Assembly: GCF_024978135.1 (NCBI RefSeq)
Contig: NZ_JANTEZ010000001.1
Span: forward strand, 186,001-250,000
Length of the DNA: 64,000 bases
Origin: Herbiconiux gentiana
Lineage (GTDB): Bacteria; Actinomycetota; Actinomycetes; Actinomycetales; Microbacteriaceae
Reading direction: 5' to 3'
Below are positions 15,939-64,000 of this stretch, piece by piece. The notes beneath the pieces were generated by a model. That model worked only from the letters and a program-made list of their open reading frames with translations. It was not told the DNA's origin and did not search any database. A program made the position numbers and the translations under genes. Every line of letters starts with the position of its first letter. Position 1 is the first letter of the stretch.

Positions 15939-15972
15939 AGTACTGTCTCAACCAGTTCTGTGTTTTACACGG

Positions 15973-16057
15973 TGTCCGAGGGGGGACTTGAACCCCCACG
16001 CCCTATACGGGCACTAGCACCTCAAGCTAGCGCGTCTGCCATTTCCGCCACCCGGAC
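15973..16057 (-). tRNA. tRNA-Leu, anticodon GAG
   Basis: An 85-base class II tRNA reading CUC (and CUU by wobble) codons. The 7-bp acceptor stem pairs GTCCGGG with CTCGGAC with one G-T pair. The anticodon stem CTAGC/GCTAG encloses TTGAGGT with GAG at positions 34-36. A long variable arm (TGCCC GTATA GGGCG) marks a leucine tRNA, and the T arm is GGGGG TTCAAGT CCCCC. The discriminator base is A. The 3' CCA is not encoded (CCG follows). No integrated element or duplicated attachment site is evident beside it. Confidence 0.96.
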
Positions 16058-49979: not shown

Positions 49980-51050
49980 TCAAGGGCGCGGTGGTGCGGT
50001 CGAGTCGCGGACCACGAGGTGGGTGGCCAGCTCGATCCGCTTGGCGGGGAGCGGATCTCCCCCGGCGAGCCGCATCACGGAGGAGACCGCATTGCGGCCG
50101 ATGTCGGCTATCGGCTGGTGCACTGTGGTCAACGGCGGAGTCGACGTTCGTGCGAGATAGGTGTCGTCGAACCCCACGACGCTCAGGTCGCGCGGCACCT
50201 GCAACCCGCAGCGACGGGCGGCCTCAAGCACCCCCATCGCGGAGATGTCGCTTCCGGCGAAGATCGCGGTCGGCGGCAGTTCCGCTCCGAGCAACCGCTC
50301 GGCGGCATCACGCCCGTGCTCGAACGTGTACGAGTGCCGCAGCACCGCATCGAGATCGGCCGGCAGTCCGGCATCGGTCATCGCGGCCGCCCAGCCGTGG
50401 GCGCGGATCACATCGCAGGTGGCCCGCGGTGGTCCGCCGACATAGGCCACCCGGTTGTGACCGAGCGAGATGAGGTACTGCGTGGCCTCGTATGCACCGG
50501 CCCAGTTAGTCGCACCGATACTGGGGGTCGACTTCCGCGGGCGGTCGATGGGGTCGACCAGCACCATCGGGAGGCCCACGGCGCGGAGAGCGTTCTCTCG
50601 GTCCGCCGAGAACGCGCTGGTGACTTCGATCACACCGACGCGGCCCGCCCTCACGAGCGACTGTGCCCACGCGGCACGCGGAAGGTTCTGAATGCTCTCG
50701 ATCGACCTCATGAGGAGCCCGGCACCGAGACTGCCGGCAATCTCCATCGCTCCGCCCATGAACAAGGAGAGGTAAGGGTTCGCGACATCTGCTGGTTCGA
50801 CGAGAACCTCGATCGTCGGCTCGCCGACCGAACGGAGCGACCCTCTCCGTTCGAACACGCTGACGTAGCCGAGCGAGTCTGCGACCGCTTCCACTCGAGC
50901 TCGAGTGTCCTCACCGATGCCGCGCCGGCCGTTGATCACCTTCGAGACAGTTCCGATCGACACGTTCGCCGTACGCGCGACGTCGTCGATGGTTACGCGG
51001 CGGCTCGCCGGATCCATGGGGTAGGTGCCAAGAACGTCATCGTCACTCAT
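49980..51050 (-). CDS. LacI-family transcriptional regulator
   Basis: A 356-residue repressor. The HTH is VTIDDVARTANVSIGTVSKVINGRRGIGEDTRARVE from about residue 19, with the family hinge helix, followed by a periplasmic-binding-like sensor domain (VEVTSAFSADR, YVGGPP, AIFAGSDISAMGVLEAARRCGLQVP, VVGFDD). It presumably controls its own operon in response to the imported sugar. It is located inside the operon, between permease and GH3 genes, four bases from the permease stop. Confidence 0.93.
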   Translation of the reverse strand: MSDDDVLGTYPMDPASRRVTIDDVARTANVSIGTVSKVINGRRGIGEDTRARVEAVADSLGYVSVFERRGSLRSVGEPTIEVLVEPADVANPYLSLFMGGAMEIAGSLGAGLLMRSIESIQNLPRAAWAQSLVRAGRVGVIEVTSAFSADRENALRAVGLPMVLVDPIDRPRKSTPSIGATNWAGAYEATQYLISLGHNRVAYVGGPPRATCDVIRAHGWAAAMTDAGLPADLDAVLRHSYTFEHGRDAAERLLGAELPPTAIFAGSDISAMGVLEAARRCGLQVPRDLSVVGFDDTYLARTSTPPLTTVHQPIADIGRNAVSSVMRLAGGDPLPAKRIELATHLVVRDSTAPPRP

Positions 51051-51054
51051 GCGT

Positions 51055-51885
51055 TCACTTCCCCCCCACGCCCATCAACCCGGCGACGAGAGATCGCCTG
51101 GCAAACAAGTACACGACGAAGATCGGGATGATTGTCAGAATGACCGCCGACATCAGCCCCGGGATGTTCACGCTGTACTGCTGACGGAAGCTGCTGAGGC
51201 CGACCGTCGCCACCATCACCTCGGGCGAGCGGGTGAGGATGAGCGGCAGGAGGAATCCGTTCCAGGCGTTGAGAGCCGAGTACACGATGATGGTCGCGAT
51301 GCCACCCCGCGACAGTGGCACCACGAGCGTGAAGAATGTGCGGATGGGGCCGGCGCCGTCCATCGAGATCGCCTCGTAGAGTTCGTTGTTGATCTCCCGC
51401 ATGCTCCCGGTGAGAATCAGGGTTGTCAGTGGTATGACGAAGGCGGCGGTGGGCAGGATCACGCCGAGCAACGAGTCATACAAGCCGATCGAGTTGATCA
51501 GGTAATACAGCGGGATGACGACGACCTGAGCGGGGATGGCCAGCCCGATGAGGAGAAGGCGGAAGACCGTCTTGACCCCTCGACTGCGGCTCCTCACGAT
51601 GGCATATGCCAGCGGCGGCACCAGAACAAGCACGATGGCCACCGTGCCGACCGTTATGATCGCCGCATTGAGCAGGTAGTGCCCGAACCCTAGTTCGAAC
51701 GACAAACCGAAGTTCTCCAGCGTGAACTCAGTGGGTGGGGCCAGCGGCCCCCCGCTCGTGTACGCGGCGCGGCTCTCCAGAGCGGCGCGCACCATCAGAT
51801 AGACGGGGAGCAGGATGATCAGCAGCCACGCGACGGCGAAGCTTCCGCCGATCCAGTTCGGGCGTGCGAGAGTGCGGGTCGCCAT
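51055..51885 (-). CDS. Carbohydrate ABC transporter permease (MalG type)
   Basis: A 276-residue inner-membrane protein with six helices. The cytoplasmic EAA loop is EAISMDGAGPIRTFFTLVVPLSRGG, which docks on the ATPase. It pairs with the MalF-type subunit whose stop overlaps this ATG by one base. The further upstream frame is shadow. Confidence 0.93.
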   Translation of the reverse strand: MATRTLARPNWIGGSFAVAWLLIILLPVYLMVRAALESRAAYTSGGPLAPPTEFTLENFGLSFELGFGHYLLNAAIITVGTVAIVLVLVPPLAYAIVRSRSRGVKTVFRLLLIGLAIPAQVVVIPLYYLINSIGLYDSLLGVILPTAAFVIPLTTLILTGSMREINNELYEAISMDGAGPIRTFFTLVVPLSRGGIATIIVYSALNAWNGFLLPLILTRSPEVMVATVGLSSFRQQYSVNIPGLMSAVILTIIPIFVVYLFARRSLVAGLMGVGGK

Positions 51886-52853
51886 CAGATGCCCTCCTGC
51901 GAGCTGTCCATCTTGTCGTAGCCGGTGAGACGCACCATCACGAGCGACACGATCGCGCAGAGTACGACGAGCACGAGGGCGATGACGCTGCCGTAACCGA
52001 GGTCGAACGAAATGAAGGCTTGTTGATACATGTAGAACGGCAGGATGGCCGTGCCGTTGCTGGGACCGCCCCGGGTGAGTATGAGGATGATGTCGAACGC
52101 TGTGAAAGTTCCCACCACGATCAGGATGGTCGTCGTGACGATCGTGTTGCGCAGCTGGGGAAGCGTGATCGAGAAGAACTGGCGAGCCCGTCCGGCACCG
52201 TCGATCTGTGCCGCCTGATAGAGCACTGCCGGAATGCCTCGCGCCGCGCCCTGGAAGATGAGCGTGTAAAGCGGCGATGCACCCCAGAGATAGATGAAGA
52301 CGATCACCGCGATTGCCGACCATTGCCGACCCAGCAGGTTTCCGTCGCCGAAGAGCCACGGAAGAGCGGCCGGCAGTCCGAAGTTCGGGTCGAGCAGCGA
52401 ACCCCAGAGCACGCTGACCGCCGCCGTCGACATCAGCAGCGGAATGAAGTACAGAGCCACGACGACTGCTCTCCAGCGCTGCCGTCCTGCCGCCCACACG
52501 CCGGTCAGCACACCGAGAGGGATCTGCGTGACCACTGCCAGCACGACGAGCGCCAGAGTAACGCCGATGCTCTGAGCGATGCCCGGATCGGAGAACAATC
52601 GTTCCCAGTTGGCGGTGCCAACGAACACCGGCGGCGCGACTCGGATGCCGTTGTACTTCGTGAACGACAGATAGACGGCGAACACCAGCGGCAGCAGTGC
52701 GAAGACGCTGAAGTACAACACGGCGGGGACCGACCATAAGAAGCCGGGGCGGCCCGTCAGACGCGGGCCGCCCGTTCTCCTGATGTCTCCGCGCTCCTCA
52801 AAAGACGCCGCGCTGCGCGTCTGAACATGTTCACGAGTCACGACTCGGCTCAT
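51885..52853 (-). CDS. Carbohydrate ABC transporter permease (MalF type)
   Basis: A 322-residue permease subunit. The first 45 residues are hydrophilic, then six helices (LWSVPAVLYFSVFALLPLVFAVYLSF first). The EAA-type loop is QAAQIDGAGRARQFFSITLPQLRN. It is encoded 42 bases after the binding-protein gene. Confidence 0.93.
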   Translation of the reverse strand: MSRVVTREHVQTRSAASFEERGDIRRTGGPRLTGRPGFLWSVPAVLYFSVFALLPLVFAVYLSFTKYNGIRVAPPVFVGTANWERLFSDPGIAQSIGVTLALVVLAVVTQIPLGVLTGVWAAGRQRWRAVVVALYFIPLLMSTAAVSVLWGSLLDPNFGLPAALPWLFGDGNLLGRQWSAIAVIVFIYLWGASPLYTLIFQGAARGIPAVLYQAAQIDGAGRARQFFSITLPQLRNTIVTTTILIVVGTFTAFDIILILTRGGPSNGTAILPFYMYQQAFISFDLGYGSVIALVLVVLCAIVSLVMVRLTGYDKMDSSQEGI

Positions 52854-52895
52854 CTTGATGCCTTTCGAGGATGCGGGAGACGGATGCTTCCGCGA

Positions 52896-54239
52896 CTACT
52901 GGCCCGCAGGCGCCGTGAGCGCCTGCATCTGGGTGATCCACGCAGCGGAGTCCAGCGATCCGTTGAAATAACCGGCCACCGCATCCTGCAAGCCGGTCTT
53001 GCTCGCCGTCGGAACGGTCTGGTCCCACGAGAGCTGGAAGGAGGGAGCGTTCTGCACGAGATCGAAGACGAAGGTGAGGTACTCCTTCTTCTGAGCGTCG
53101 ATCGTGGTGTCGGCGGCGATGAAGTCGCCTGCACTGACGGTCGGCGGAAGATTGCCCAGGGCGAGTTCGTCCTTCACGAAGTCGTCGCTGTAGAGCTCTT
53201 TCAGGAAGTCGCGCGCCACCTCGGGGTAGCGCGTGTCGGCAGCCACGTTGTAGTAGTTGCTCAGGTTTCCGGCGATCTCGCCGGCCTTGCCCTCGCCGCC
53301 GTCGAGGCTGGGGAAGGCGATCCATCCGAGATCTTCGGCCGCGAAGGTGGGGTCGGCGGCGGCGAGCGTGGCGTAGTTCCAGGTGCCCATCAGCTCGTAG
53401 GCAGCCTTCCCTTGGCTGAGCAGGGCGGTCGTGCCCTGGTTCGAGTACCCGACCGAGTCGAAGGTCGCGCCGAACGCCCCGTCGCCGATGAGGCCGGAAA
53501 GGTCGTCGAGCGCCTTCTTGCTGCCGTCGCTGGCCCACACCTCGGCATCGCCCGCCAAGCCCTTCGCGACCTGCTCGTTGCCGATCTGCCGGGCGAACGC
53601 GTACTGGAACCACATCTGGGTGGGCCACTTGTCAGCACCGGCCAGGGCGACGGGAATGACCCCCGAGTCGGCGAGCGTGGCCGATTGGGAGACCAGGTCG
53701 TCCCAGCTGGCTGCGGGCTCCAGGCCCGCGTCGGCCAGCACCGACTTGTTGTAGAACAAGAACGTCGGCGCGACCCCGCGCATGGGGATGCCGTAGGACA
53801 CACCGTCGATCACCTCGCCGTCGAACACCGACGGGAGAAAGGAGCTCTTCAGCTCGGGCACCTGCGCGATGAAATCGTCAAGAGGGAGAATCGCCCCGGC
53901 ATCGACGAGCTGCTGGATGTCGGCGGCCCCCCAGCTCATGAAGATGTCAGGAGCGTTGGCTGTCCCCAGCGACGTGCGCACGGCGGTCGGGTAGGTGTCG
54001 TCGCCGGGGAGGCTGTCCACGACGACCTTGACGTCGGATGTCTCGTTGAAACGATCAGCGGCCGCCTGCTCGGCCGAGGCCGCCGCATCGCCGTAGACGG
54101 CGATGTGCAGCTCATTGTCTGGACGGGATTCGTTAGCGCCTCCGCCGGACCCGCCGCTGCAGGCGCTGGTCAGTAGAGCCACCGCAGCAACGGCGGCCAC
54201 CCCACTGGTGCGCAGAAAAGTTTTCCTTCGGTTCATCAT
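52896..54239 (-). CDS. Sugar ABC transporter substrate-binding lipoprotein
   Basis: A 447-residue family 1 extracellular solute-binding protein. The lipobox is LTSAC (Cys27), followed by a Gly/Ser linker. Typical blocks are ELHIAVYGD, SLGTANAPDIFMSWGAADIQQLVDAG and the conserved mid-protein GVAPTFLFYNKSVLADAGLEPAASWDDL. It binds an oligosaccharide outside the cell and delivers it to the permeases. Two ATGs (54239, 54236) are possible behind GAGAGG. First gene of the operon. Confidence 0.95.
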   Translation of the reverse strand: MMNRRKTFLRTSGVAAVAAVALLTSACSGGSGGGANESRPDNELHIAVYGDAAASAEQAAADRFNETSDVKVVVDSLPGDDTYPTAVRTSLGTANAPDIFMSWGAADIQQLVDAGAILPLDDFIAQVPELKSSFLPSVFDGEVIDGVSYGIPMRGVAPTFLFYNKSVLADAGLEPAASWDDLVSQSATLADSGVIPVALAGADKWPTQMWFQYAFARQIGNEQVAKGLAGDAEVWASDGSKKALDDLSGLIGDGAFGATFDSVGYSNQGTTALLSQGKAAYELMGTWNYATLAAADPTFAAEDLGWIAFPSLDGGEGKAGEIAGNLSNYYNVAADTRYPEVARDFLKELYSDDFVKDELALGNLPPTVSAGDFIAADTTIDAQKKEYLTFVFDLVQNAPSFQLSWDQTVPTASKTGLQDAVAGYFNGSLDSAAWITQMQALTAPAGQ

Positions 54240-54605: not shown

Positions 54606-55409
54606 TTAGTACGATTCGCGTTCATTACTCGGGGTGTGGATTGCGTATTGGCCCACAAGCGTTTCAGTGCTTCTAGCCAGAAGCGCGACATCGGCCCCTA
54701 CAAGAATGAACGTGGCCCCGGCGTTGAGGTAAGCCTCTGCCACCGCGATATCGAATGCGTTCACACCTACGGGCTTGCCCATTCGTCTTGTTGCTTCGAA
54801 GGTTCGTTTCACAGCGTCCACGACGTCTGGATGGGTCTGGTTCCCCAGCAGTCCCATCGACGCGGCAAGGTCAGACGGCCCAACGAACACCCCGTCGACC
54901 CCGTCGACCGCGGCGATCGCCGCCGCCTCGGCGACGCCGGCCGCGGTCTCGATCTGCACGAACAGAGCCACGTGCCGGTCGGCCTCGAGCAGGTACTCGT
55001 CGACCCGGTTCCACCGCGCCGACCGTGCCAGCGCCGACCCGACGCCCCGCACGCCACGGGGCGGGTAGCGCACGGCCCGCACCACCGCCTCGGCCTCGGC
55101 GGCCGAGGAGATCATCGGTACCAGGAGGTTCTGGGCACCGAGGTCGAGCACCTGCTTGATTACGACGGCATCGGCGGAGGGCACTCGCACCACGGGCGTC
55201 ACCGGGTAGGCGGCCACCGCCTGCAGCTGGGCGAGCGTCGACGCGAGGTCGTTCGGCCCGTGCTCCTGATCGATCAGCAGCCAGTCGATGCCCGAGCCGG
55301 CGACGATCTCCGCCACGAGCGAGCTGCCCGAGCACACCCAGATGCCAGCAAGCGGAGCGGATGTCGCGGCGAGCGCATCCCGGAGCGTCGGTTTCAGACG
55401 AAGCGACAC
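54606..55409 (-). CDS. HpaI-family class II aldolase (HpcH/HpaI)
   Basis: A 267-residue metal-dependent aldolase that cleaves 4-hydroxy-2-oxo acids to pyruvate and an aldehyde. Key segments are LLIDQEHGPND (His), VQIETAAGVAEA (metal Glu) and GVFVGPSDLAASMG (metal Asp). In homoprotocatechuate degradation it cuts 4-hydroxy-2-oxoheptanedioate to pyruvate and succinic semialdehyde. GTG 55409 overlaps the hydratase gene by 16 bases, last of four co-directional genes. Confidence 0.88.
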   Translation of the reverse strand: MSLRLKPTLRDALAATSAPLAGIWVCSGSSLVAEIVAGSGIDWLLIDQEHGPNDLASTLAQLQAVAAYPVTPVVRVPSADAVVIKQVLDLGAQNLLVPMISSAAEAEAVVRAVRYPPRGVRGVGSALARSARWNRVDEYLLEADRHVALFVQIETAAGVAEAAAIAAVDGVDGVFVGPSDLAASMGLLGNQTHPDVVDAVKRTFEATRRMGKPVGVNAFDIAVAEAYLNAGATFILVGADVALLARSTETLVGQYAIHTPSNERESY

Positions 55410-56185
55410 GAGATCGTCCCCAGTTCGCGGTAATCGGCGAGCACGGTATCGCCCTTTTCCACCCACATCGGCCGCGTGAACGACCCGCCGAGCACGATCT
55501 CCCCCGCTTCGAGCCGATCGCCGTGCTGAGCGAGCTTGTTCGCGAGCCACGCCACTCCGGTAGCCGGATGATTGAGCACCGCCGCCGCGACGCCCGACTC
55601 CTCGATCGTCTCGTTGCGGTAGAGCAGGGCCGACACCCAGCGGAGGTCGACCGCATCGACCGCGACCGGGTTGCCGCCGTAGACCAGCCCACCGAACGCC
55701 GCGTTGTCACTGATCGTGTCCACGATCGTGCGGCCCGGCATCTCGATGCGCGACGACAGGATCTCGAGCGCCGGCACCACGTAGTCGGTGGCCCGCAGCA
55801 CGTCGAAGACCGTGACATCCGGCCCCGTAAGGGGGGACCCCAGCACGAACGCCAACTCCACCTCGATACGCACGTTCGAGAACCGGGAGTGTTCGATCAG
55901 GCTGCCGTTCTCGAACACGGCGTCGGCGAAGATCGCCCCGTAATCGGGCTCGGTGATGTCGGTGGCCGCCTGCATCACCTTCGACGTCAGGCCGATCTTG
56001 CGCCCCACCAGTCGGCGGCCAGCAGCGACGCCGCGTCGGCGCCACTCATTCTGCACCGCGTAGGAGTCGTCGATGGTCATGCCCGGGTGCCGCGCTGTGA
56101 GCAGCGGCACGGTCGTGCGGTCGCGCTCGGCGGCGGCGAGCTCGTCAGCGATGGCAGTGATGGTCTCGGCAGGCAGAGCACCCAC
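55394..56185 (-). CDS. 2-keto-4-pentenoate/2-oxohept-4-ene-dioate hydratase (HpaH-like)
   Basis: A 263-residue FAH-fold hydratase adding water across the double bond of 2-oxo-enoates. The metal ligands are in VEVELAFVLG (Glu-x-Glu), preceded by RKIGLTSKVMQ and DYGAIFADAVF, as in HpaH/MhpD enzymes. GTG 56185 is six bases after a GGAGGA site; a GTG at 56191 is too close to it. Spaced two bases from the upstream RraA-like gene. Role: the step before the aldolase encoded just downstream. Confidence 0.9.
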   Translation of the reverse strand: MGALPAETITAIADELAAAERDRTTVPLLTARHPGMTIDDSYAVQNEWRRRGVAAGRRLVGRKIGLTSKVMQAATDITEPDYGAIFADAVFENGSLIEHSRFSNVRIEVELAFVLGSPLTGPDVTVFDVLRATDYVVPALEILSSRIEMPGRTIVDTISDNAAFGGLVYGGNPVAVDAVDLRWVSALLYRNETIEESGVAAAVLNHPATGVAWLANKLAQHGDRLEAGEIVLGGSFTRPMWVEKGDTVLADYRELGTISCRFV

Positions 56186-56187
56186 GG

Positions 56188-56931
56188 TCACTCCTCCCGC
56201 TCTCGCTCGAAGTGGGAGCGCCATTCCGCGTTCATCGGAAAGAGGCCCTCGAGCGCGGCCCCCTCCTCGATGCGGGCGGCGACCCAGGCGTCTTCGTGCT
56301 CCTGCGCCAGCGCGGCATCCGCGACCTCGTCGGCGAGCGCCGGCGGAATCACGATTACCCCGTCGGCGTCGCCCACCAGGATGTCGCCGGGCTCCACCGT
56401 GGTGCCCCCGCAGGCGATCGTCACGTCGAGATCCCACGGCACGTGCTTGCGCCCGAGCACGGCCGGATGCGCGCCGTTCGAATAGAGCGGGAGACCGACG
56501 GCGGCGACCGCATCACGGTCGCGGATGCCACCGTCCGTCACGATCCCGGCGGCACCGCGGGCCGCTGCACGGAGAGCGAGGATATCGCCGAGCGTGCCCG
56601 ACCCGGCCTCACCCCGCGCCTCGATCACGATCACCTCGCCCGGACCGACCTCGTCGAAGGCACGCTTCTGCGCGTTGTAGCCGCCGCCGTGGCTCTGGAA
56701 CAGGTCTTCCCGCCCGGGCACGAACCGCAGCGTCTTCGCGGTGCCGACGAGCTTCCGCTCCGGATGTAGCGGCCGCACCCCGTCGATGGTGACGAGATTG
56801 AGGCCTCGCTTGCGCAGCTGGGCGGACAGCCCCGCCACGGGCACGGCCTCGAGCTTGGCGCGCAGCTCGGCGCTCAGGCCGCCGACGACACCGCCCTCGA
56901 TGGGGCCCGTGGATGTGCGATCAGTGGACAC
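56188..56931 (-). CDS. RraA-fold protein (4-hydroxy-4-methyl-2-oxoglutarate aldolase-like)
   Basis: A 247-residue protein with the class II pyruvate-aldolase G-x20-R-D motif in GDILALRAAARGAAGIVTDGGIRDRDA, so it may be an HMG/CHA-type aldolase or an oxaloacetate decarboxylase, not an RNase E inhibitor. The residue preceding the second half, PGDILVGDADGVIVIP, is typical. GTG 56931 overlaps the dioxygenase gene by 11 bases. A pyruvate aldolase beside an HpaI aldolase makes redundant cleavage chemistry; it may decarboxylate the ring-fission product. Confidence 0.87.
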   Translation of the reverse strand: MSTDRTSTGPIEGGVVGGLSAELRAKLEAVPVAGLSAQLRKRGLNLVTIDGVRPLHPERKLVGTAKTLRFVPGREDLFQSHGGGYNAQKRAFDEVGPGEVIVIEARGEAGSGTLGDILALRAAARGAAGIVTDGGIRDRDAVAAVGLPLYSNGAHPAVLGRKHVPWDLDVTIACGGTTVEPGDILVGDADGVIVIPPALADEVADAALAQEHEDAWVAARIEEGAALEGLFPMNAEWRSHFEREREE

Positions 56932-57916
56932 CGAGGTACTCCTCCAGCGTCGCCGGGTTCGCGTGCAGCAGCGGCTCGCGCAACACCTCACCGGGGAATT
57001 CGCTGGCCTCGAAGAACCAGCGCCGCGAGGCCGGCATGCCCCAGAGCTGCGCCCGCCGCGGGTTGCTCACGTCCCACCGGATCGGCACCTCCTCCAGGTC
57101 GATGAACTGGTAGTGGGTGGTGAACAGCTCGACGCGGTGCTGGTCGGGGTCGCGCAGATAGAGGAACAGCGCGTTGCTGATGCCGTGCCGGCCGGGACCC
57201 CGGTCGATCTCCTCACCGAAACCGAGTGCCCCCGCGACATCCGCCGCGTGCAAGAGCGCTGAGGCATCCGGCACCGTGTAGGCGAAGTGGTGCAGGCGCG
57301 GACCGTGGCCGTTGGTGAACACAAGGTCGTGGGTGTTGCCCTTCACCTCCATCCAGGTTCCCCAGAGCTCGTCGGTGCCGTCTTCCGCCGTGTACTCCGA
57401 CATGCGCATCCCGAGCCCGGTCCAGAAACCGGTGGCGGACTGCACGTCGTAGGTCACCACCTGGAAGTGGTCGATGCGCTGCGGGGCGCCCGAGACGAAC
57501 TGGTCGAAGTTCTGCATCCTGCGTTCGACGAGGTCCATCGACGAGGTGAGCTCCAGGTGCGTGCCGACCGGGTCGGTGAACTGGAGGGTCGGGCCCTGAT
57601 GGGGTTTCTCGACGCGCTGGTGGTCGATGCCGATTGAGGCGAAGTACTTCTCCGCGGCCACGATGTCGGCGTCGGCGCGCACACGCAGGCCGACTCGAAG
57701 CGCCTTGGCCTCGTCGGCGCGCTCGAGCACGAGACTGTGGTGAGCCGACTCCTCCAGCCCTCGGAGGTAGACCGCGTCATCCGTCTGCTCCGTGACGACG
57801 AGCCCGACCACATCGCGGTAGAAGTCGCGGCTCGCCTCCAGATCGGTCACGGCGAGCGAGACGTGACTCGCGCGGGTCAGCGCGAAGGGCGGGTCGTAGT
57901 TGGTGATCGGCAGCAT
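56921..57916 (-). CDS. Homoprotocatechuate 2,3-dioxygenase-like extradiol dioxygenase
   Basis: A 331-residue type I extradiol ring-cleavage enzyme with two VOC modules. The metal ligands His150 (QRIDHFQV), His210 (RLHHFAY) and Glu263 (HRVELFTT) have spacing close to the family's 155/214/267. DYDPPF-like opening YDPPFALTRASHV and the GPGRHGISNALFLY loop match the Brevibacterium HPCD type. It would cleave 3,4-dihydroxyphenylacetate or a related catechol between C2 and C3. ATG 57916 has GGAG six bases upstream. Divergent from a LysR gene. Confidence 0.9.
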   Translation of the reverse strand: MLPITNYDPPFALTRASHVSLAVTDLEASRDFYRDVVGLVVTEQTDDAVYLRGLEESAHHSLVLERADEAKALRVGLRVRADADIVAAEKYFASIGIDHQRVEKPHQGPTLQFTDPVGTHLELTSSMDLVERRMQNFDQFVSGAPQRIDHFQVVTYDVQSATGFWTGLGMRMSEYTAEDGTDELWGTWMEVKGNTHDLVFTNGHGPRLHHFAYTVPDASALLHAADVAGALGFGEEIDRGPGRHGISNALFLYLRDPDQHRVELFTTHYQFIDLEEVPIRWDVSNPRRAQLWGMPASRRWFFEASEFPGEVLREPLLHANPATLEEYLGVH

Positions 57917-57999
57917 CGGCGGCTCCAGACTGTTCGGGACTGCCCTGTCAGGTTGCCAGCCGCAAGTCGCGAGCAGAACTACCGATTTGCTTCCATTCC

Positions 58000-58014
58000 A
58001 TAGCCTGAAGCTAT
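58000..58014. promoter_or_regulatory. LysR-type box ATAGC-N5-GCTAT (T-N11-A)
   Basis: A perfect 5-bp dyad with a five-base centre containing T(58001)-N11-A(58013), the LysR binding signature, in the 127-bp gap between the divergent dioxygenase and LysR genes. It is about 30 bases upstream of the LysR start. Confidence 0.65.
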
Positions 58015-58030
58015 ACCTGGCTCGCAGAAC

Positions 58031-58036
58031 TAGAGT
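58031..58036 (+). promoter_or_regulatory. -10 hexamer of LysR gene (leaderless)
   Basis: TAGAGT, seven bases before the ATG at 58044. It begins 17 bases downstream of the LysR box. Confidence 0.5.
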
Positions 58037-58043
58037 CAACTCT

Positions 58044-58964
58044 ATGGAGCTCCGACACCTGCGCTACTTCACCGCCGTCGTCGAAGCCGGCTCCCTCACG
58101 GCAGCGGCCGCCCGCCTGCACATCTCGCAGCCCCCCCTGAGCGTGGCGATCGCGAAACTCGAGGCCGAACTCGGCGTGACCCTGCTCGTTCGCACCCCCC
58201 GCGGGGTGGAGCCGACGAGCGCAGGGCGCTATCTGCTCGATGCGTCATCCCGGGTGCTGGGCGAGGTCGACGACATCGTGTCGGCCCTCGGCCGTTTCGG
58301 CGCGGGCACGGCCGGTTCACTCACGATGGCGGCCGTGCCCGCCCTGACCTGGCACCGGATGCCCGTCGTGCTGCGGGCATATGCCGCAGAGGCGCCCGAG
58401 GTGGAGATCCGCCTCGTCGATCCCCCGCCCTGGGCGGCGATCGACATGCTCGAGCAGCGCACCGCCGACCTCGCCGCCGTCATGGTCTCTGACGCCGAGC
58501 GTTTCGCCGACCGGCACCGCGGCTCATTGCAGATCATGGACTGGGGCGACATCCCGCTGGTCGCGGCGCTCCCTCCCGAGCACTCCGACGCGCCCGACCC
58601 GCTGCCGCTACGCGCCTTCGACGGCGAGGTGGTGTTGCTCCCCCGCCGCACGGCCGCAGTGCCGAGCCTGCCAGAGGCGATCGAGAAGGCCTTCCGCGCG
58701 CACGGTGTCGTGCCCTCATCGATCCGCACCGTCGAGACCATCCAGAGCTGCATCCCGCTAATCGAAGCCGGCATCGCGCGGGCGATCCTCCCCGATCCGG
58801 ATAGCGCGAGCCTCGCGCGATTCGACCTGGTGGTTCGCCGGCTCCAACCAGCGCCGGATCCGCTCCGGGCTCTTCTGCTCGCCCGCGCTGACGCCGGGCA
58901 GAACGTCGTCGTCGCGCGTCTGATCGATCGACTTTCCGCGCCGCCGCCGAATCCTGTGCGATAA
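58044..58964 (+). CDS. LysR-family transcriptional regulator
   Basis: A 306-residue regulator with the LysR winged HTH at residues about 1-60 (MELRHLRYFTAVVEAGSLTAAAARLHISQPPLS) and a two-part inducer-binding domain (from about residue 90). It is divergent from the dioxygenase operon and shares the LysR box at 58000-58014, so it probably activates that operon with a pathway intermediate as inducer and limits its own expression. No ribosome site precedes the ATG. Confidence 0.93.
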   Translation: MELRHLRYFTAVVEAGSLTAAAARLHISQPPLSVAIAKLEAELGVTLLVRTPRGVEPTSAGRYLLDASSRVLGEVDDIVSALGRFGAGTAGSLTMAAVPALTWHRMPVVLRAYAAEAPEVEIRLVDPPPWAAIDMLEQRTADLAAVMVSDAERFADRHRGSLQIMDWGDIPLVAALPPEHSDAPDPLPLRAFDGEVVLLPRRTAAVPSLPEAIEKAFRAHGVVPSSIRTVETIQSCIPLIEAGIARAILPDPDSASLARFDLVVRRLQPAPDPLRALLLARADAGQNVVVARLIDRLSAPPPNPVR

Positions 58965-59013
58965 CGTATAGGATCGAAGTCGCATCGTCGCAGCTCGTCG
59001 AAAGGGGCAGATC

Positions 59014-59700
59014 GTGGCCGTCAGCAAAGCCGACCAGGCCTATCAGATCCTGAAGCAGCGCATAATGGACGGCACCTACGGACCCGGCAACCGGCTCGTG
59101 ATCGACCAACTGGGCCGCGAGTACAACATCAGCTCGGTGCCCTGGCGCGAATCGCTCCGCCGTCTCGAAGCCGAGGGCTGGGTCGACTTCGTGCAGAACG
59201 CCGGCGCCGTGGTGAAGAGCTTCGACACCGGTTCCTGGCAGCGCACCATGCGCCTGCTCGCCCGCCTGAACGCCCTCGCCACCGCACTGTCGGCGGAGAA
59301 CCTCACACCCGACGACATCGCCGCGGCCCGGTCGCTCAACCGCGAGATGGGTGACGCGCTCGCCAACTTCGACCCCCGCCGCTTCGGCGCGCTCAACCGC
59401 GAGTTCCACGGCCTGCTCTGCTCGCGCTGCGACGACGAGCGGCTCAACGACATGGTGAACACCGAGTGGGCCCGACTCGAGCTGGTGCGCCGCTCGGCCT
59501 TCTGGTACGCACCGGGCCGCGCACTCGCCTCGCTCGCCGAGCACGACGCCATCCTGGATCTCATCGAGGGTGGCGCCGGCGCCGAGATGATCGAGACGGC
59601 GTCGCGCCGGCACGACATCAACACCCTTGAAGCGGTGACCAGCTACGACGCGGAGCTGTCCGCGTCCGGTTCGCCGGCAGAGACCCGCTCCTTCGACTGA
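59014..59700 (+). CDS. GntR-family regulator with FCD ligand domain
   Basis: A 228-residue regulator. The winged HTH covers residues about 1-65 (QAYQILKQRIMDGTYGPGNRLVIDQLGREYNISSVPWRESLRRLEAEGW), and the FCD domain shows metal-ligand positions in NREFHGLL, AEHDAIL and RRHDINTL. FCD regulators usually sense small organic acids. GTG follows AAAGGGG. Its last 58 bases overlap the 3' end of the convergent DUF3500 gene. An ATAACGTATAG sequence (58961-58971) just upstream resembles a GntR site and may be autoregulatory. Confidence 0.9.
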   Translation: MAVSKADQAYQILKQRIMDGTYGPGNRLVIDQLGREYNISSVPWRESLRRLEAEGWVDFVQNAGAVVKSFDTGSWQRTMRLLARLNALATALSAENLTPDDIAAARSLNREMGDALANFDPRRFGALNREFHGLLCSRCDDERLNDMVNTEWARLELVRRSAFWYAPGRALASLAEHDAILDLIEGGAGAEMIETASRRHDINTLEAVTSYDAELSASGSPAETRSFD

Positions 59701-60998
59701 GCACCGGTCGCGGCTGCAGCCTGGGCCAGATAGGCGCGCCCGTAGTCGTTGCCATTCGGCAGGCGCAGCGTGGTGTGCACGTGGAAACGGGCCGGCAGCC
59801 GGTTGCTCAGCCAGACCCCGGCGTGGTGGTCGAGCTCGGCGATGATCACCGGGCTCTGAATGCGCAGGTAGAACGGCTGCGAGCCGTCGGTGGCGCCGTA
59901 CCAGGCGAACCAGGTCTCGTCGAGGTGCGCGTCGTAGTCGCCGAGCGTCGCCGCCCGCTGTGGTTCGACGAGCAGCAGTAGGAAGTCGTCGACGATCCGC
60001 CGGAGCAACCCCTGCTGGTGCGCGGAGAGCTCGGTCACACGGATGCCCTCATAGGGCACCACGCGGTTGTCGCGGAACGCCCCCACCACGTGCCGTTCGT
60101 CGGCCGGATGCAGCCGCCCCTCGGGCATCGCCTCATCGAGTACCGACCCGTAGACGACCGCGTGAGCCCGCTGACCGTCGTCGAACGACTCGGCCAGCTC
60201 GATCGCGAGTCTCTCACGCCCCTCGAACAGCGGCGGGCGCACCCCCTCCGACAGCGCGGGCTCCGCACCGAGGAACACGGGCGCGACGACGTGCCGCCCC
60301 GCCACCGTGATGAAATGCACGGCCACGTGGTGCCCGAAGAGCTGCCACCCCCACGCACTCCCCTCGGAGGGCGTGCCGAAGATGGAGAACCAGTAGCTCC
60401 GCTCGTTCAGGATGGCGGGCAGATCGACGAGGTCGCCGAGAAAGCCGTTGAGGGCCATGGCCTCCCGCACTCGCTCGAAGCCCTCGGGGCTGAGGGATGC
60501 GCGCAGAAGCTCGAACACCGCATCCACCTTCTGCGGCTCGAGGTTCTCAAGTCGGAGACCCACCCGGTAGACCACGAACTCCGGATTGCTCCAGGCGCGC
60601 CACTCCGGCGCATCGACGGGGTAGCCGATCTGGTCTCCCTCCTCGGGGTCGAGTTCGGCGAGGAGCCGTCGGGCGGCCTCGAGCACCGCACCCTCGGGCG
60701 AGAGCGGCGCGGCCGGCAGGCTGTACAGCCCGTCTCGCACCACCCCGTCGCTCGTGACTCCGACGAAGGGCTCGCGGTACAGGCCGTCCCAGTAGTCGAG
60801 CAGGTCACGGAGGAACGGGGCGGACTGCTTGTCCGCCGTGAACTCCTCGTAGTCCATGCCTCGGCCACCGGCGAGCACCGGGTCGTCATGGTCGTAGAGA
60901 TAGCCGAGGTAACTCTCCTGCGGCAGCTCGACGGGCCCGGCCTGACCGGTGACCCGGGCGGTGGAGAAGTAGTCGTCGATCTCGGTGTCGTCGGCCAT
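59643..60998 (-). CDS. DUF3500 family protein
   Basis: A 451-residue cytoplasmic protein with no signal peptide. I recognise the DUF3500 family from landmarks such as the PEWRAWSNPEFVVYRVGLRLE stretch, FLGDLVDLPAILNERSYWFSIFGTPSE, the GWQLFGHHVAVHF segment (paired His), HLDETWFAWYG, LELDHHAGVWLS-like AELDHHAGVWLS, and HVHTTLRLPNGNDYG near the end. The family has no known reaction; several His/Asp/Glu pairs could bind metal. Here it is embedded in an aromatic catabolic locus. The ATG at 60998 has no ribosome site but lies two bases after a small upstream frame. Confidence 0.85.
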   Translation of the reverse strand: MADDTEIDDYFSTARVTGQAGPVELPQESYLGYLYDHDDPVLAGGRGMDYEEFTADKQSAPFLRDLLDYWDGLYREPFVGVTSDGVVRDGLYSLPAAPLSPEGAVLEAARRLLAELDPEEGDQIGYPVDAPEWRAWSNPEFVVYRVGLRLENLEPQKVDAVFELLRASLSPEGFERVREAMALNGFLGDLVDLPAILNERSYWFSIFGTPSEGSAWGWQLFGHHVAVHFITVAGRHVVAPVFLGAEPALSEGVRPPLFEGRERLAIELAESFDDGQRAHAVVYGSVLDEAMPEGRLHPADERHVVGAFRDNRVVPYEGIRVTELSAHQQGLLRRIVDDFLLLLVEPQRAATLGDYDAHLDETWFAWYGATDGSQPFYLRIQSPVIIAELDHHAGVWLSNRLPARFHVHTTLRLPNGNDYGRAYLAQAAAATGAQSKERVSAGEPDADSSAS

Positions 60999-61000
60999 AG

Positions 61001-61123
61001 TCAGATGGGCAGGTCGAGGCGCCAGCCAAACGACGTGCCTAACCGCGTCCGAGGCTCGGCACACATGCCTACGCCGCCGGTGCAAGGATCGGCTCCTGTA
61101 TCAGTGCGGCTCGTCTTCGTCAT
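61001..61123 (-). CDS. Candidate 40-residue leader peptide upstream of DUF3500 gene
   Basis: ATG at 61123, stop TGA at 61003-61001, two bases before the DUF3500 ATG. A GGGAG site lies nine bases upstream. The peptide (starting MTKTSRTDTG) has two cysteines and no known homologue. Because the DUF3500 start lacks its own ribosome site, translation could be coupled through this frame. It could also be chance. Confidence 0.35.
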   Translation of the reverse strand: MTKTSRTDTGADPCTGGVGMCAEPRTRLGTSFGWRLDLPI

Positions 61124-61210
61124 GGTGTTAAACTCCCGCTTCTTGGTACGTAGCGCAAAATATTATCGTGTACGAAATCCTATGTGGAAGCAACTTCGAT
61201 CACCAAAAGA

Positions 61211-61244
61211 AGTTTTGTAGGCAACATTTGCGGCCTGCAAAACT
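61211..61244. promoter_or_regulatory. Large inverted repeat, candidate operator
   Basis: Arms AGTTTTGTAGGC (61211-61222) and GCCTGCAAAACT (61233-61244) match at 11 of 12 positions with a ten-base spacer. It sits midway between two divergent genes. No T run follows on the plus strand, so an operator is more likely than a terminator. Confidence 0.55.
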
Positions 61245-61323
61245 AATGGTCAAGGCCAGTATCGGACGATCAGACTCATTTCGAGCTTCCTACACGGACT
61301 TACCGAATTTCGGGATTCAGCTT

Positions 61324-61353
61324 GTGATCGTGTGTGATTTTCCATACGATCAC
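61324..61353. promoter_or_regulatory. Operator-like inverted repeat over the hydrolase promoter
   Basis: Perfect arms GTGATCGT (61324-61331) and ACGATCAC (61346-61353) with a 14-base spacer. The right arm contains the -10 hexamer TACGAT (61345-61350), six bases before the ATG at 61357, so a bound protein would block the start of transcription. Confidence 0.6.
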
Positions 61354-61356
61354 CCC

Positions 61357-62097
61357 ATGCCCCGCGACGTGCAGTACGCCCATGACGGCACCCGTATGCG
61401 CGGACTCCTTTTCTCCACCCCTGGGGTGAGCGGCTCCCCGACGATCGTGCTGGTGCACGATGCATTCGGTCTGAACGGCCACACGCTCGAGACGGCCGAG
61501 CGCTACGCGGCCCTGGGCTTCACGGTCTTCGCCGCCGATGTCTGGGGCGACCGTCTCACGCCCCAGGCGGAGTCCGAGATCGGCCCCCTGATCGGCGGCA
61601 TGGTCGGTGACCGCGCACGCTGGATAAGCAGGATCGCAGCCGCGCACGAGGCCGCGGCCGCGCAACCGGAGGTCGACGCATCCGCTCTCGTCACCATCGG
61701 GTACTGCTTCGGCGGATCGTCGGCGCTCGAATACCTGCGCACCGGCGGGCGCACACGGGGCGTCGTCAGCATCCACGGCGGACTCGACCTGCTGGCACCC
61801 GACTGGAGCGGTGCGCGGACCGATGCGCGCGTGCTCGTGTGCACGGGCGCCGACGACCCAATGGCCACCCGCGAGCAACGTGCCGCACTCGAGACCGCGA
61901 TGACCGGGGCGGGCCTCGACTGGGAGACCGACCTCTACAGCGACACGAAGCACGCCTTCACGAACCCCTCATCCAGCCACTCGCCCATGCCCCACGTCGT
62001 GGCCTACAACCCCCGGAGCGCCGCGCGCGCCTGGGAGTCGACCACCCGCCTCCTCGGCGAACTGTTTCCCGAAATCAAGGAGAAGAACCATGCCTGA
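61357..62097 (+). CDS. Dienelactone hydrolase family protein
   Basis: A 246-residue alpha/beta hydrolase with the Cys-Asp-His triad: nucleophile Cys117 in IGYCFGGSS, Asp166 in CTGADDP and His199 in DTKHAFTNP. The family hydrolyses lactones such as 4-carboxymethylenebut-2-en-4-olide in ortho-type pathways and other carboxylic esters. The ATG at 61357 is chosen from its TACGAT -10 placement; the frame is open to 61168 but that part is promoter DNA. It overlaps the monooxygenase gene by eight bases. Confidence 0.9.
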   Translation: MPRDVQYAHDGTRMRGLLFSTPGVSGSPTIVLVHDAFGLNGHTLETAERYAALGFTVFAADVWGDRLTPQAESEIGPLIGGMVGDRARWISRIAAAHEAAAAQPEVDASALVTIGYCFGGSSALEYLRTGGRTRGVVSIHGGLDLLAPDWSGARTDARVLVCTGADDPMATREQRAALETAMTGAGLDWETDLYSDTKHAFTNPSSSHSPMPHVVAYNPRSAARAWESTTRLLGELFPEIKEKNHA

Positions 62098-63388
62098 CAC
62101 CGACATCGACGTCGCCATCATCGGAGCAGGGCCGGCTGGCCTCGCCGCCGCCCTGCGGCTGCACCAGAGGGGATTCCGCCCGAAGATCTACGAGTCGGTC
62201 GAAGAGCTCAAGCCACTCGGCGTCGGCATCGACGTGAAGGTCTACGGCTCGAAGGAGCTCGACGAGCTCGGCCTGCTCGAGGAGTTCCGGGCGATCTCCG
62301 TCGACGCCCAGGAGTCGATCTTCTTCAACAAGTACGGCCAGGAGATCTACGCCGAGCTCTGCGGCGTGCACATGGGCTACCTCTACGAGCAGCGCTTCGT
62401 GCACCGCGGCTACCTGCAGATGCTGCTCTACCGCACCGTTCTCGAGCGACTCGGCGACGACGCCGTCATCAAGGGGCAGCGCTTTCTGGGGTACACGCAG
62501 GATGCCGACGGCGTGACCCTCGACCTGCAGAACCGCGACGGCAGCTCGAGCACGGCCCGCGCCGACCTCGTGATCGCCGCCGACGGCATCAACTCCACCA
62601 CCCGTCGCCAGATGCACCCCGAGAGCTCGGAGCCCGTCTACTCGGGCATCACCATGTGGCGGGGAACCACCCTCATGAAGCCGTTCAAGACCGGCGGCAC
62701 CATCCTGCACATCGGGGCGCCGCAGATCTCCAGCATGATCGTGTACCCGATCGCCGACGACTTTGAGGGCTCGGGTCTCACCCTGGTGAACTGGGTGGTC
62801 GAGGCGACCCGCGACCAGTCCGTCGAGGACTGGAACCAGCTCGGCAGCGTCGACGAGATCATCCACTACTACGACGACACCCACATCGAGTTCCTCGACT
62901 TGCAGCAGATGCTGCGCGACGCACGGGAGGTCTACCTCTTCCCGCTCATCCGGCACGACCCGCTCGACAGCTGGATCGACGGCCGGGTCGTGATGATCGG
63001 CGACGCCGCCCACGCCATGTACCCGCGCGGCGGGAACGGTGCGTGCCAGGCGATCGTCGACGGCGGCGCCCTGGCCGAGAAGCTCGCCACCATCGACGAC
63101 GTGGACGAGGCACTGCAGGCGTTCCAGGACCAGCGGCTCAAGGCCGTCAACGGCATCGTGATGGCGCACCGCGGCGAGGGTTACGAGGTCATACGCCGCA
63201 TGGTCGAGGAGCGCACCGGCGGCGAGCGCATCGGCGACATCGAAGACGTGCTGCCGCTGGCCGAGGCCGACGAGATCTTCAGCAAGTACCACAAGCTCGT
63301 GGGCCAGGAGCGGCCGGGCCGCGACGCCGGCGAGGCCACCGGCTTCCGCACCTGGGATCTCGCGGAGAGCGAGGCGGGAACCCGATGA
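62090..63388 (+). CDS. FAD-dependent aromatic monooxygenase
   Basis: A 432-residue class A flavoprotein hydroxylase. The dinucleotide motif is VAIIGAGPAGLAAAL (near residue 7), the DG motif AADGINSTTRRQ, and the GD motif VVMIGDAAHAMYPRGGNGACQAI. Related enzymes hydroxylate salicylate, 6-hydroxynicotinate or similar carboxylated or hydroxylated rings. In this operon it probably prepares a catechol for ring cleavage. ATG overlaps the hydrolase gene; stop overlaps the next ATG by four bases. Confidence 0.92.
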   Translation: MPDTDIDVAIIGAGPAGLAAALRLHQRGFRPKIYESVEELKPLGVGIDVKVYGSKELDELGLLEEFRAISVDAQESIFFNKYGQEIYAELCGVHMGYLYEQRFVHRGYLQMLLYRTVLERLGDDAVIKGQRFLGYTQDADGVTLDLQNRDGSSSTARADLVIAADGINSTTRRQMHPESSEPVYSGITMWRGTTLMKPFKTGGTILHIGAPQISSMIVYPIADDFEGSGLTLVNWVVEATRDQSVEDWNQLGSVDEIIHYYDDTHIEFLDLQQMLRDAREVYLFPLIRHDPLDSWIDGRVVMIGDAAHAMYPRGGNGACQAIVDGGALAEKLATIDDVDEALQAFQDQRLKAVNGIVMAHRGEGYEVIRRMVEERTGGERIGDIEDVLPLAEADEIFSKYHKLVGQERPGRDAGEATGFRTWDLAESEAGTR

Positions 63389-63825
63389 GCGACGCGGATG
63401 TCGCGGCGGTGCTCGAGACGGAGGCGCGTCGCATCCGGGCCCTGATCGACGGCGACGTGGCGGCTCTCGACGAGCTCTACGACGACAGCCTCGTGCACAT
63501 CCACGCCCCCGGACTCGTACAGAACAAGATTCAGCTGCTCGAGCACGTGGCCGTGCGCCGGGCGTATCTCGACATCACCCGGGGCGAGCTGACCGTTCGG
63601 GTCTTCGGAGACGTGGCCGTCGTGACGGGGCCGATGCTCAACCGGCTCCGCACCGCCGAGGGCGGCGAGCGCACGGTGGACGGGGTCGTCACGCAGGTGC
63701 TCCGACGAAACGGAGCCGATTGGCGGTTCGTGAGCTTTCAGATGACCCCCATCGCGGAGCAGGCCTGGGGCGCCCTGCCCTCCGAGCAGAGAACCCCCGA
63801 GCCCGCAGAGGGGCAGAAAGCATGA
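63385..63825 (+). CDS. NTF2-like (DUF4440/SnoaL) protein
   Basis: A 146-residue alpha+beta cone protein. EARRIRALIDGDVAALDELYDDSLVHIHAPGLVQNKIQLLEHV is typical of the SnoaL-like fold, and the later strands (VRVFGDVAVVTGPML, WRFVSFQMTPI) complete it. It may be an isomerase, dehydratase or decarboxylase acting on pathway intermediates. Overlaps both neighbours by four bases. Confidence 0.85.
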   Translation: MSDADVAAVLETEARRIRALIDGDVAALDELYDDSLVHIHAPGLVQNKIQLLEHVAVRRAYLDITRGELTVRVFGDVAVVTGPMLNRLRTAEGGERTVDGVVTQVLRRNGADWRFVSFQMTPIAEQAWGALPSEQRTPEPAEGQKA

Positions 63826-64000
63826 AGCTCGCCCGCTACCGCACCGCCGACGGCCCGATCCGGCTCGGCCGGGTCGACGGCGACCAGATCACCGACATCT
63901 CGGATGTCGCGGGCGTCGGCACCTCGCTCCGCGCCATCCTGCCCGAACTCGACTCGCTCCGCGACGCCATCCTCGCCTCCGACGGAGCGGTGCTCCCGCT
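63822..64000 (+). CDS. FAH-family hydrolase/isomerase, 3' end cut by window
   Basis: Only about 59 residues are present, starting MKLARYRTADGPIRLGRV, with the FAH N-terminal domain (GVGTSLRAILPELD). The catalytic metal site lies beyond the window. Probably a 2-oxohept-3-ene-dioate isomerase or fumarylpyruvate hydrolase continuing the operon. ATG overlaps the upstream stop by four bases. Confidence 0.8.
   Translation, partial: MKLARYRTADGPIRLGRVDGDQITDISDVAGVGTSLRAILPELDSLRDAILASDGAVLP

Follow-up and report, generated by a model that had tools for sequence, protein, structure and literature searches.

A DUF3500 protein in an aromatic-catabolic locus of Herbiconiux gentiana: candidate ring opener in a possible bacterial counterpart of the fungal tetrahydroxybenzene route

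The 64,000-nucleotide stretch of the Herbiconiux gentiana genome analyzed here (the window; bases 186001-250000 of contig C1 in a 3.85 Mb draft genome) ends in a locus with a probable role in degrading plant aromatics, in which a 451-residue DUF3500 protein is encoded. The reading favored here, to which we assign a probability of about 0.52, is that this locus is the bacterial counterpart of a fungal DUF3500 route through 1,2,3,5-tetrahydroxybenzene, with the DUF3500 protein as the candidate ring opener acting after a flavin monooxygenase (FMO). Gene content, conservation, co-occurrence, conserved residues and the predicted fold were observed or computed; from these we infer every reaction, substrate and metal named below. 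The features of the locus are as follows.

54606..55409, minus strand: HpaI-like HpcH/HpaI aldolase (PF03328, 2e-50; TIGR02311, 310.9 bits, below the cut-off of 368.8; start chosen by eye)
55394..56185, minus strand: HpaH, 2-oxo-hept-4-ene-1,7-dioate hydratase (TIGR02312, 357.3 bits, over the cut-off of 351.5; start by eye)
56188..56931, minus strand: RraA-fold protein, putative aldolase or decarboxylase, similar to the C-terminal part of the fusion protein PRK12764 (FAH-RraA) (PF03737, 2.5e-35; start by eye)
56921..57916, minus strand: HpaD-type extradiol dioxygenase (TIGR02295, 334.4 bits, over the cut-off of 321.4; 1f1r, 3.5e-66)
58044..58964, plus strand: LysR regulator (PF00126, PF03466)
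59014..59700, plus strand: GntR/FCD regulator (PF00392, PF07729)
59643..60998, minus strand: DUF3500 protein, 451 residues, group A, candidate ring-opening enzyme (PF12006, E 1.3e-90, 304.3 bits)
59775..59783, minus strand: H406-x-H408 codons of DUF3500, candidate ligands (54/56 sequences; also in 9x86)
59835-59837, minus strand: E388 codon of DUF3500, candidate ligand (48/56 sequences; also in 9x86)
60327..60332, minus strand: H223-H224 codons (GHH) of DUF3500 (invariant, 56/56; also in 9x86)
61357..62097, plus strand: dienelactone-hydrolase (DLH) family protein with a GYCFGG motif, presumably holding the nucleophile (PF01738, 1.9e-34)
62090..63388, plus strand: FMO of the PRK07538 group (NF005720, 439 bits, over the cut-off of 400; best PDB match 2rgj, which we take to be PhzS, 6.3e-69)
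63385..63825, plus strand: NTF2-like DUF4440 protein (PF14534, 1.1e-14)
63822..64000, plus strand, running on 676 bases past the window: FAH-superfamily hydrolase (closest NCBIfam model NF053535, a 2,4-diketo-acid-type hydrolase, 215.6 bits, below the cut-off of 500)

The overlaps and short gaps between these genes argue for two operon-like runs. With the starts chosen, the HpaI-like and HpaH genes overlap by 16 bases, HpaH and RraA lie 2 bases apart, and RraA and HpaD overlap by 11; in the second run (DLH, FMO, DUF4440 and FAH) the overlaps are 8, 4 and 4 bases. Coordinates and Pfam matches place the LysR, GntR/FCD and DUF3500 genes between the runs, the last two overlapping tail to tail by 58 bases. 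An earlier sequence-only reading of this DNA (the preliminary description) had named all of these genes with this order, these strands and this arrangement, and on these points it is borne out.

In fungi, Martins et al. (2024) reportedly describe a conserved cluster in which DUF3500 is joined by a monooxygenase, an FAH-like gene and a gene for a short protein, with 2,4,6-trihydroxybenzoate as a related substrate. The window genes show this fungal-type clustering of DUF3500 with a monooxygenase and an FAH-family hydrolase. They differ from the fungal pathway in being bacterial, in having an extra dienelactone-hydrolase-type gene, and in the attached meta-cleavage arm; many relatives add an amidohydrolase, an SDR and RidA. 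According to the relevant passage of PMC12388069, the Aspergillus nidulans DUF3500 protein AN10530 is proposed to convert 1,2,3,5-tetrahydroxybenzene to 5-hydroxydienelactone; AN10530 and the window protein belong to one Pfam family. The fungal route, which PMC12388069 and PMC13094099 cover, was described in 2026 as currently seeming restricted to fungi. For bacteria, part of PMC13039779 treats 1,2,3,5-tetrahydroxybenzene only as the co-substrate of the anaerobic pyrogallol transhydroxylase, and an excerpt of PMC8416521 contains a Rhodococcus DUF3500 gene whose locus tag is close to those of genes for an MhpA-type hydroxylase and an FCD-domain protein. No bacterial DUF3500 or tetrahydroxybenzene ring-opening route was recognized in the literature searched.

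In the proposed mechanism, the FMO would hydroxylate a plant-derived polyhydroxybenzoate or polyhydroxybenzene, perhaps with loss of the carboxylate; the product, an electron-rich ring, would be opened by DUF3500, which would use a His/Glu metal site. The lactone would then be processed by the dienelactone-hydrolase-type and NTF2-like proteins, and the FAH hydrolase would cleave a 2,4-diketo acid. In relatives of this locus a gamma-resorcylate-type decarboxylase probably supplies the route. The run of HpaD, RraA, HpaH and HpaI genes, together with an SSADH-like gene, may form a second, arylacetate-type meta-cleavage arm. The preliminary description had instead given DUF3500 the first attack. 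That role is not supported: the steadiest partner of DUF3500 is an FMO (44/49 group-A loci, and a different one in 30/31 group-B loci; groups defined below), the kind of enzyme that would naturally attack first, and DUF3500 suits the ring-opening step that follows.

Linkage of DUF3500 to these genes was seen among 199 genomes of the same family. PF12006 matches at E 0.001 or better occur in 37 of them, 36 over the curated cut-off of 27.2, which the window protein, the sole match in its genome, passes at 304.3 bits; three short matches (in genomes G036, G048 and G107) are not among the loci fetched. Identity to the window protein was used to divide the DUF3500 proteins into groups A to D. Group A, the close form (59-72% identity), is present in 8/199 genomes, one of which, G053, was placed in group A via locus L164 because the gene caller missed its DUF3500. 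The same eight carry the window FMO at 66% identity or more (next matches 39% or less) and the cluster-type HpaD at 79% or more (HpaD has matches in 76 genomes altogether, those outside the eight being at 42% or less). The chance of two sets of eight coinciding is 1.9e-14 if genomes are taken as independent and 2e-10 at the genus level (7/85 genera), figures that the relatedness of the genomes would make larger. In all eight the FMO is on DUF3500's contig, within about 10 kb; HpaD lies less than 8 kb from DUF3500 in six, about 15 kb away in G053, and about 67 kb away in G089. An amidohydrolase is present in seven family genomes, all among the eight, the lone exception being the window's own genome. 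(Of 14 control genomes, only that of Corynebacterium glutamicum has a DUF3500 match.)

The same linkage is conserved beyond the family. In a scan of named genomes the best 80 of 218 candidate loci were taken, and for that reason the set leans to close relatives: 49 belong to group A (53-72% identity) and 31 to group B (44-49%), and by record title all 80 are in Actinomycetota. Linkage was counted by tblastn in locus DNA, since the gene caller missed DUF3500 in several loci. The amidohydrolase is found in all 49 group-A loci, the FMO in 44, DUF4440 in 37, DLH in 35, FAH in 33, HpaD in 32, RraA and HpaH in 31 each, HpaI in 30, a sugar-type ABC ATPase in 21, and a GcvT-type gene in 7. When only the 43 loci with full flanks are counted, the numbers are 43 for the amidohydrolase, 40 for FMO, 33 for DUF4440, 32 for DLH, 31 for FAH, 29 for HpaD, 28 each for RraA, HpaH and HpaI, and 7 for the GcvT-type gene. 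The statement that DUF3500 is embedded in a meta-cleavage locus is true of the window, but HpaD is a variable companion (29/43) elsewhere. The closest solved structures to the amidohydrolase (that of L067) are gamma-resorcylate decarboxylase and LigW-type decarboxylases. The GcvT-type gene of L080 scores best against syringate, then vanillate/3-O-methylgallate O-demethylases, below the cut-offs, and the remaining GcvT-type genes were assigned by a match of 55% or more to the L080 gene or its L094 kin. For FAH representatives of both groups A and B, the best model is the 2,4-diketo-acid-type hydrolase, again below its cut-off.

A plasmid of Thioclava (Alphaproteobacteria) carries the same gene set, HpaD included, with best identities to the reference set of 52% for the amidohydrolase, 57% for FMO, 39% for the NTF2-like protein, 65% for SDR, 48% for DLH, 55% for HpaD, 43% for DUF3500, 35% for FAH, 45% for HpaH and 46% for HpaI. 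It is one of six plasmid records opened, one of them without a gene table, among 20 listed of 49 with a DUF3500 match. Neighborhoods on other plasmids (Paraburkholderia, Rhodococcus and S. chartreusis) contain FAH genes, a Rieske oxygenase, a VanB-type reductase or cupins; for an Agrobacterium plasmid no FAH, Rieske, VanB-type or cupin gene is listed beside DUF3500, only a pirin-family gene. The Agrobacterium pAt plasmids (L202; hits H12-H20) carry a DUF3500 match for which the PLSDB table, itself known to have gaps, lists no gene. An unannotated DUF3500-like stretch of 28% identity is also present in MT835972.1 (8266-9177), a record that is labelled as phage and comes from human faecal samples.

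Loci without HpaD bear directly on which enzyme opens the ring. There are 14 such group-A loci with full flanks, and seven of the genomes have a cluster-type HpaD (77-82%) elsewhere. In the other seven (Nocardioides, Virgisporangium, four Streptomyces and Kitasatospora) HpaD was not found at E<=1e-50, and on the strength of these genomes the idea that HpaD cleaves the ring wherever the set occurs was rejected. In one Streptomyces locus, L127, the order is RidA, FAH, DUF4440, FMO, DLH, amidohydrolase, DUF3500, GntR, FAH-RraA fusion (736.7 bits, over the PRK12764 cut-off of 444), GntR-like, HpaH and HpaI. All genes called in this stretch, RidA/FAH through HpaI, are thereby assigned, and none of them is a recognized ring-cleaving dioxygenase, which points to DUF3500 as the ring opener. 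Nor is there a dioxygenase in the 25 of 85 Pfam families listed for 60 proteins, a part of the genes, from six of the seven HpaD-less loci (L123 was left out). A second, distant DUF3500 gene (best identity 25-28%) is present at the outer end of L127 (3413-4579; confirmed by Pfam) and of the Kitasatospora locus L140 (3369-4553).

Group B, the sister group of A, is found mostly in Arthrobacter and kin, so that its loci are not independent of each other. FAH, monooxygenase and DUF3500 are contiguous and co-directional in 28/31 group-B loci; FAH and the group's own FMO are each present in 30, and HpaD, HpaH and HpaI in none at the tblastn thresholds used. In Arthrobacter globiformis (L183) the neighbors include two alpha/beta hydrolases, an alpha-L-rhamnosidase and a bicupin; among solved structures, the bicupin is closest to quercetin 2,3-dioxygenases (2h0v, E 2.8e-66). 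This bicupin (quercetinase) is found in 29/31 group-B loci, as is one esterase, and a rhamnosidase-like gene in 15 (identity 78% or higher in 6 and 37-52% in 9); the corresponding numbers for the 49 group-A loci are 0, 0 and 2. The bicupin is also in the family-survey loci L065 and L070. Within the family it occurs in 5/199 genomes. A group-B DUF3500 is present in four of these five and in 10 family genomes overall (hypergeometric 1.6e-5). In three genomes the bicupin and the group-B DUF3500 are no more than about 10 kb apart; the exceptions are G164, with the bicupin on another contig, and G003, with a bicupin and no DUF3500 match.

As described in part of PMC6359708, quercetinase yields a depside, and ester cleavage of the depside gives protocatechuate and 2,4,6-trihydroxybenzoate. 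A monooxygenase, DUF3500 and FAH set beside a quercetinase would suit the A-ring half, 2,4,6-trihydroxybenzoate. Group-B loci resemble quercetin degradation of the Bacillus subtilis YxaG type in their quercetinase, esterase and rhamnosidase-type genes, but differ in the added monooxygenase-DUF3500-FAH genes, which could carry the A ring further. A CoA-transferase III gene next to a carboxyltransferase-domain gene, seen in 7/13 group-B loci of the first survey (representatives scanned), would suit malonate as the end product.

The more distant groups C and D behave differently. Among 139 neighbors within two genes of 36 group C/D loci, no aromatic family is enriched in the 25 of 163 families listed, which include 2 FAA_hydrolase and 2 FAD_binding-like genes, and aromatic linkage as a trait of all DUF3500 proteins was accordingly rejected. 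In individual group-D loci, DUF3500 does sit next to a flavin monooxygenase (L103, L109), or an FAH gene lies at a greater distance (L089, L105, L111). The neighborhood survey proposed in the preliminary description finds aromatic linkage in groups A and B but not in C and D. For group A, conserved linkage is what the relatives show, not the lack of it that was named as counting against the idea.

Residue conservation was counted, and a tree built, with 56 DUF3500 proteins (L074, L104 and L113, 3 of 59 loci in which the gene caller missed DUF3500, were left out). The histidines of GHH, H223 and H224, are present in 56/56. R412 is kept in 55, H406 and H408 in 54, and D418 in 53; these residues lie beyond the motifs noticed earlier. 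E388 is kept in 48, including all of groups A, B and C, while D390 is found in 20/20 of groups A and B and 16/36 of the others, and H392 in 20/20 and 0/36. Residue 228 is H in the window protein and N in 49/56. Of the two motifs taken in the preliminary description to be catalytic or metal-binding, the invariant GHH holds up well, but the 'DHH' motif is kept only in part. A metal site shared across DUF3500 is suggested by this pattern of conservation. In the tree, which has long branches on some distant rows, groups A and B are joined at 100/99 (ultrafast bootstrap/SH-aLRT) and A alone at 100/100; 12 of 13 group-B rows form a branch at 100/97, and L094, counted in B, is a separate branch inside the joint A and B clade.

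The meta-cleavage genes resemble the bacterial homoprotocatechuate (Hpa) pathway in having HpaD, HpaH, HpaI-like and SSADH-like genes; they differ in that no HpaE was seen in the stretch read around the locus, in the RraA-fold gene within the run, and in the attached DUF3500/FMO/FAH set. HpaD and HpaH pass their NCBIfam cut-offs, whereas the HpaI-like and RraA-like genes fall below those of their best models; hence the former, which does not reach the TIGR02311 cut-off for 4-hydroxy-2-oxoheptanedioate aldolase, is termed HpaI-like only, and the RraA-fold protein aligns with positions 267-494 of 501 of NF009399 at 393.6 bits (cut-off 444). The PDB match of HpaD, 1f1r, is a homoprotocatechuate 2,3-dioxygenase. 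In an alignment mapped by eye the residues of that dioxygenase which we take to bind metal and substrate match those of HpaD; its D272, presumably near the active site, reads H in the window protein. The preliminary description saw no semialdehyde dehydrogenase, and there is none inside the window, but the apparent lack is due to the window edge: a 487-residue aldehyde dehydrogenase follows FAH at about 1.1-2.55 kb past it. The best listed model for this protein is SSADH (TIGR01780, 562.5 bits, below the cut-off of 646.35), the HpaE-like score being only 402.3 bits; by these scores it is SSADH-like, not HpaE-like. The gene after it (L002:2593-3390; no NCBIfam match), labelled siderophore-interacting by eye, has relatives in 3/49 group-A loci (L117, L119 and L132). 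On the other side of the locus, window positions 49980-54239 hold, by labels given by eye, a LacI-type regulator, two permease-like genes and a solute-binding-protein-like gene. The sole RNA gene found in the window (Rfam gathering threshold and ARAGORN) is a tRNA-Leu (gag) at 15971-16057.

Several observations weigh against DUF3500 as a ring opener, and the strongest of them is the dehydratase title of a solved DUF3500 structure. An AlphaFold2 model of the window protein (mean pLDDT 87, pTM 0.88) has no significant structural likeness, among the best 50 of 195 weak Foldseek matches listed, to a ring-cleaving dioxygenase; it matches none of the VOC, LigB, intradiol or cupin folds compared. Its one match to a solved structure at E<=0.001 is 9x86 (7.6e-19; the next best is 0.2). 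This is Amc20/ApmL, the only solved DUF3500 protein found, titled 'dehydratase ApmL in Amipurimycin biosynthesis', and it retains the GHH, N, E, D, HxH and R residues. On this evidence DUF3500 could instead be a hydro-lyase, a dehydratase or lactone-forming enzyme acting on a ring-opened or hydroxylated intermediate while another enzyme opens the ring. By our own arithmetic, opened tetrahydroxybenzene (C6H6O6) would itself have to lose water to become hydroxydienelactone (C6H4O5). However, no other aromatic-ring opener is recognized in group-B loci or in the HpaD-less L127, where part of the genes were scanned. ApmL itself shares the fold and the conserved residues, but is shorter (297 residues), is distant (24% identity to the window protein), comes from nucleoside antibiotic biosynthesis, and is named a dehydratase in its PDB title; no account of Amc20 or the amipurimycin/ApmL enzyme was found in the literature searched. 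We consider a hydro-lyase role a serious alternative, though on balance an unlikely one.

Other observations concern HpaD. By sequence it is a ring-cleaver, and it is present in the window genome and in all eight group-A genomes of the family. The locus might then be an ordinary homoprotocatechuate-like meta-cleavage system, in which HpaD opens the ring, HpaH, HpaI and SSADH finish, and DUF3500 is an accessory, for example standing in for the unseen HpaE, HpaF or HpaG. The HpaD and HpaH scores, the aligned residues, the adjoining SSADH-like dehydrogenase, and the co-occurrence of HpaD in the family (8/8) and on the Thioclava plasmid all suit this idea. It is nonetheless difficult to reconcile with the seven genomes that have such DUF3500 loci and no HpaD found, and with the group-B DUF3500-FMO-FAH loci, which have no HpaD, HpaH or HpaI (0/31), and we regard it as rather improbable. 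Ring opening by DUF3500 is itself strained by the HpaD-less genomes, since intradiol dioxygenase matches occur in 7/7 of them, anywhere in the genome, and an unlinked ring-cleaver may lie elsewhere; in HpaD-less Streptomyces-type loci, HpaH and HpaI remain with DUF3500, a poor fit to two separate arms. In addition, the amidohydrolase of 49/49 other group-A loci was not found in the window's genome. Neither this genome nor the 49 group-A loci yielded a quercetinase, so the group-B substrate is not directly transferable to the window locus, and a passage of PMC6359708 states that neither acid released from the depside is found in humans or animals. Even the fungal DUF3500 activity is termed proposed and putative. 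That DUF3500 is unrelated to the aromatic genes and adjacent to them by chance would suit the distant groups, which lack such neighbors, but in view of the co-occurrence, and of clusters that are kept in both groups A and B and in two phyla, the linkage is not chance, and this explanation has almost no likelihood left.

The reading of the locus as a counterpart of the fungal route can be extended, speculatively, to a wider scheme that we think doubtful as a whole. Aerobic bacteria would break down the A ring of flavonoids, which is of the phloroglucinol type, and the related gallate/syringate ring, via 1,2,3,5-tetrahydroxybenzene, opened by a DUF3500 metal oxygenase with a fold novel among ring-cleavers. 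Group B would be the rutin/quercetin version, and group A, with its gamma-resorcylate-type decarboxylase and an HpaD arm for 3,4-dihydroxyphenylacetate, would take both halves of a flavonoid or related phenolic. If true, a tetrahydroxybenzene ring-opening route would exist in two bacterial phyla, DUF3500 would no longer be a domain without a role, the folds of ring-opening enzymes would increase by one, and the fate of the A ring after quercetinase action would be explained.

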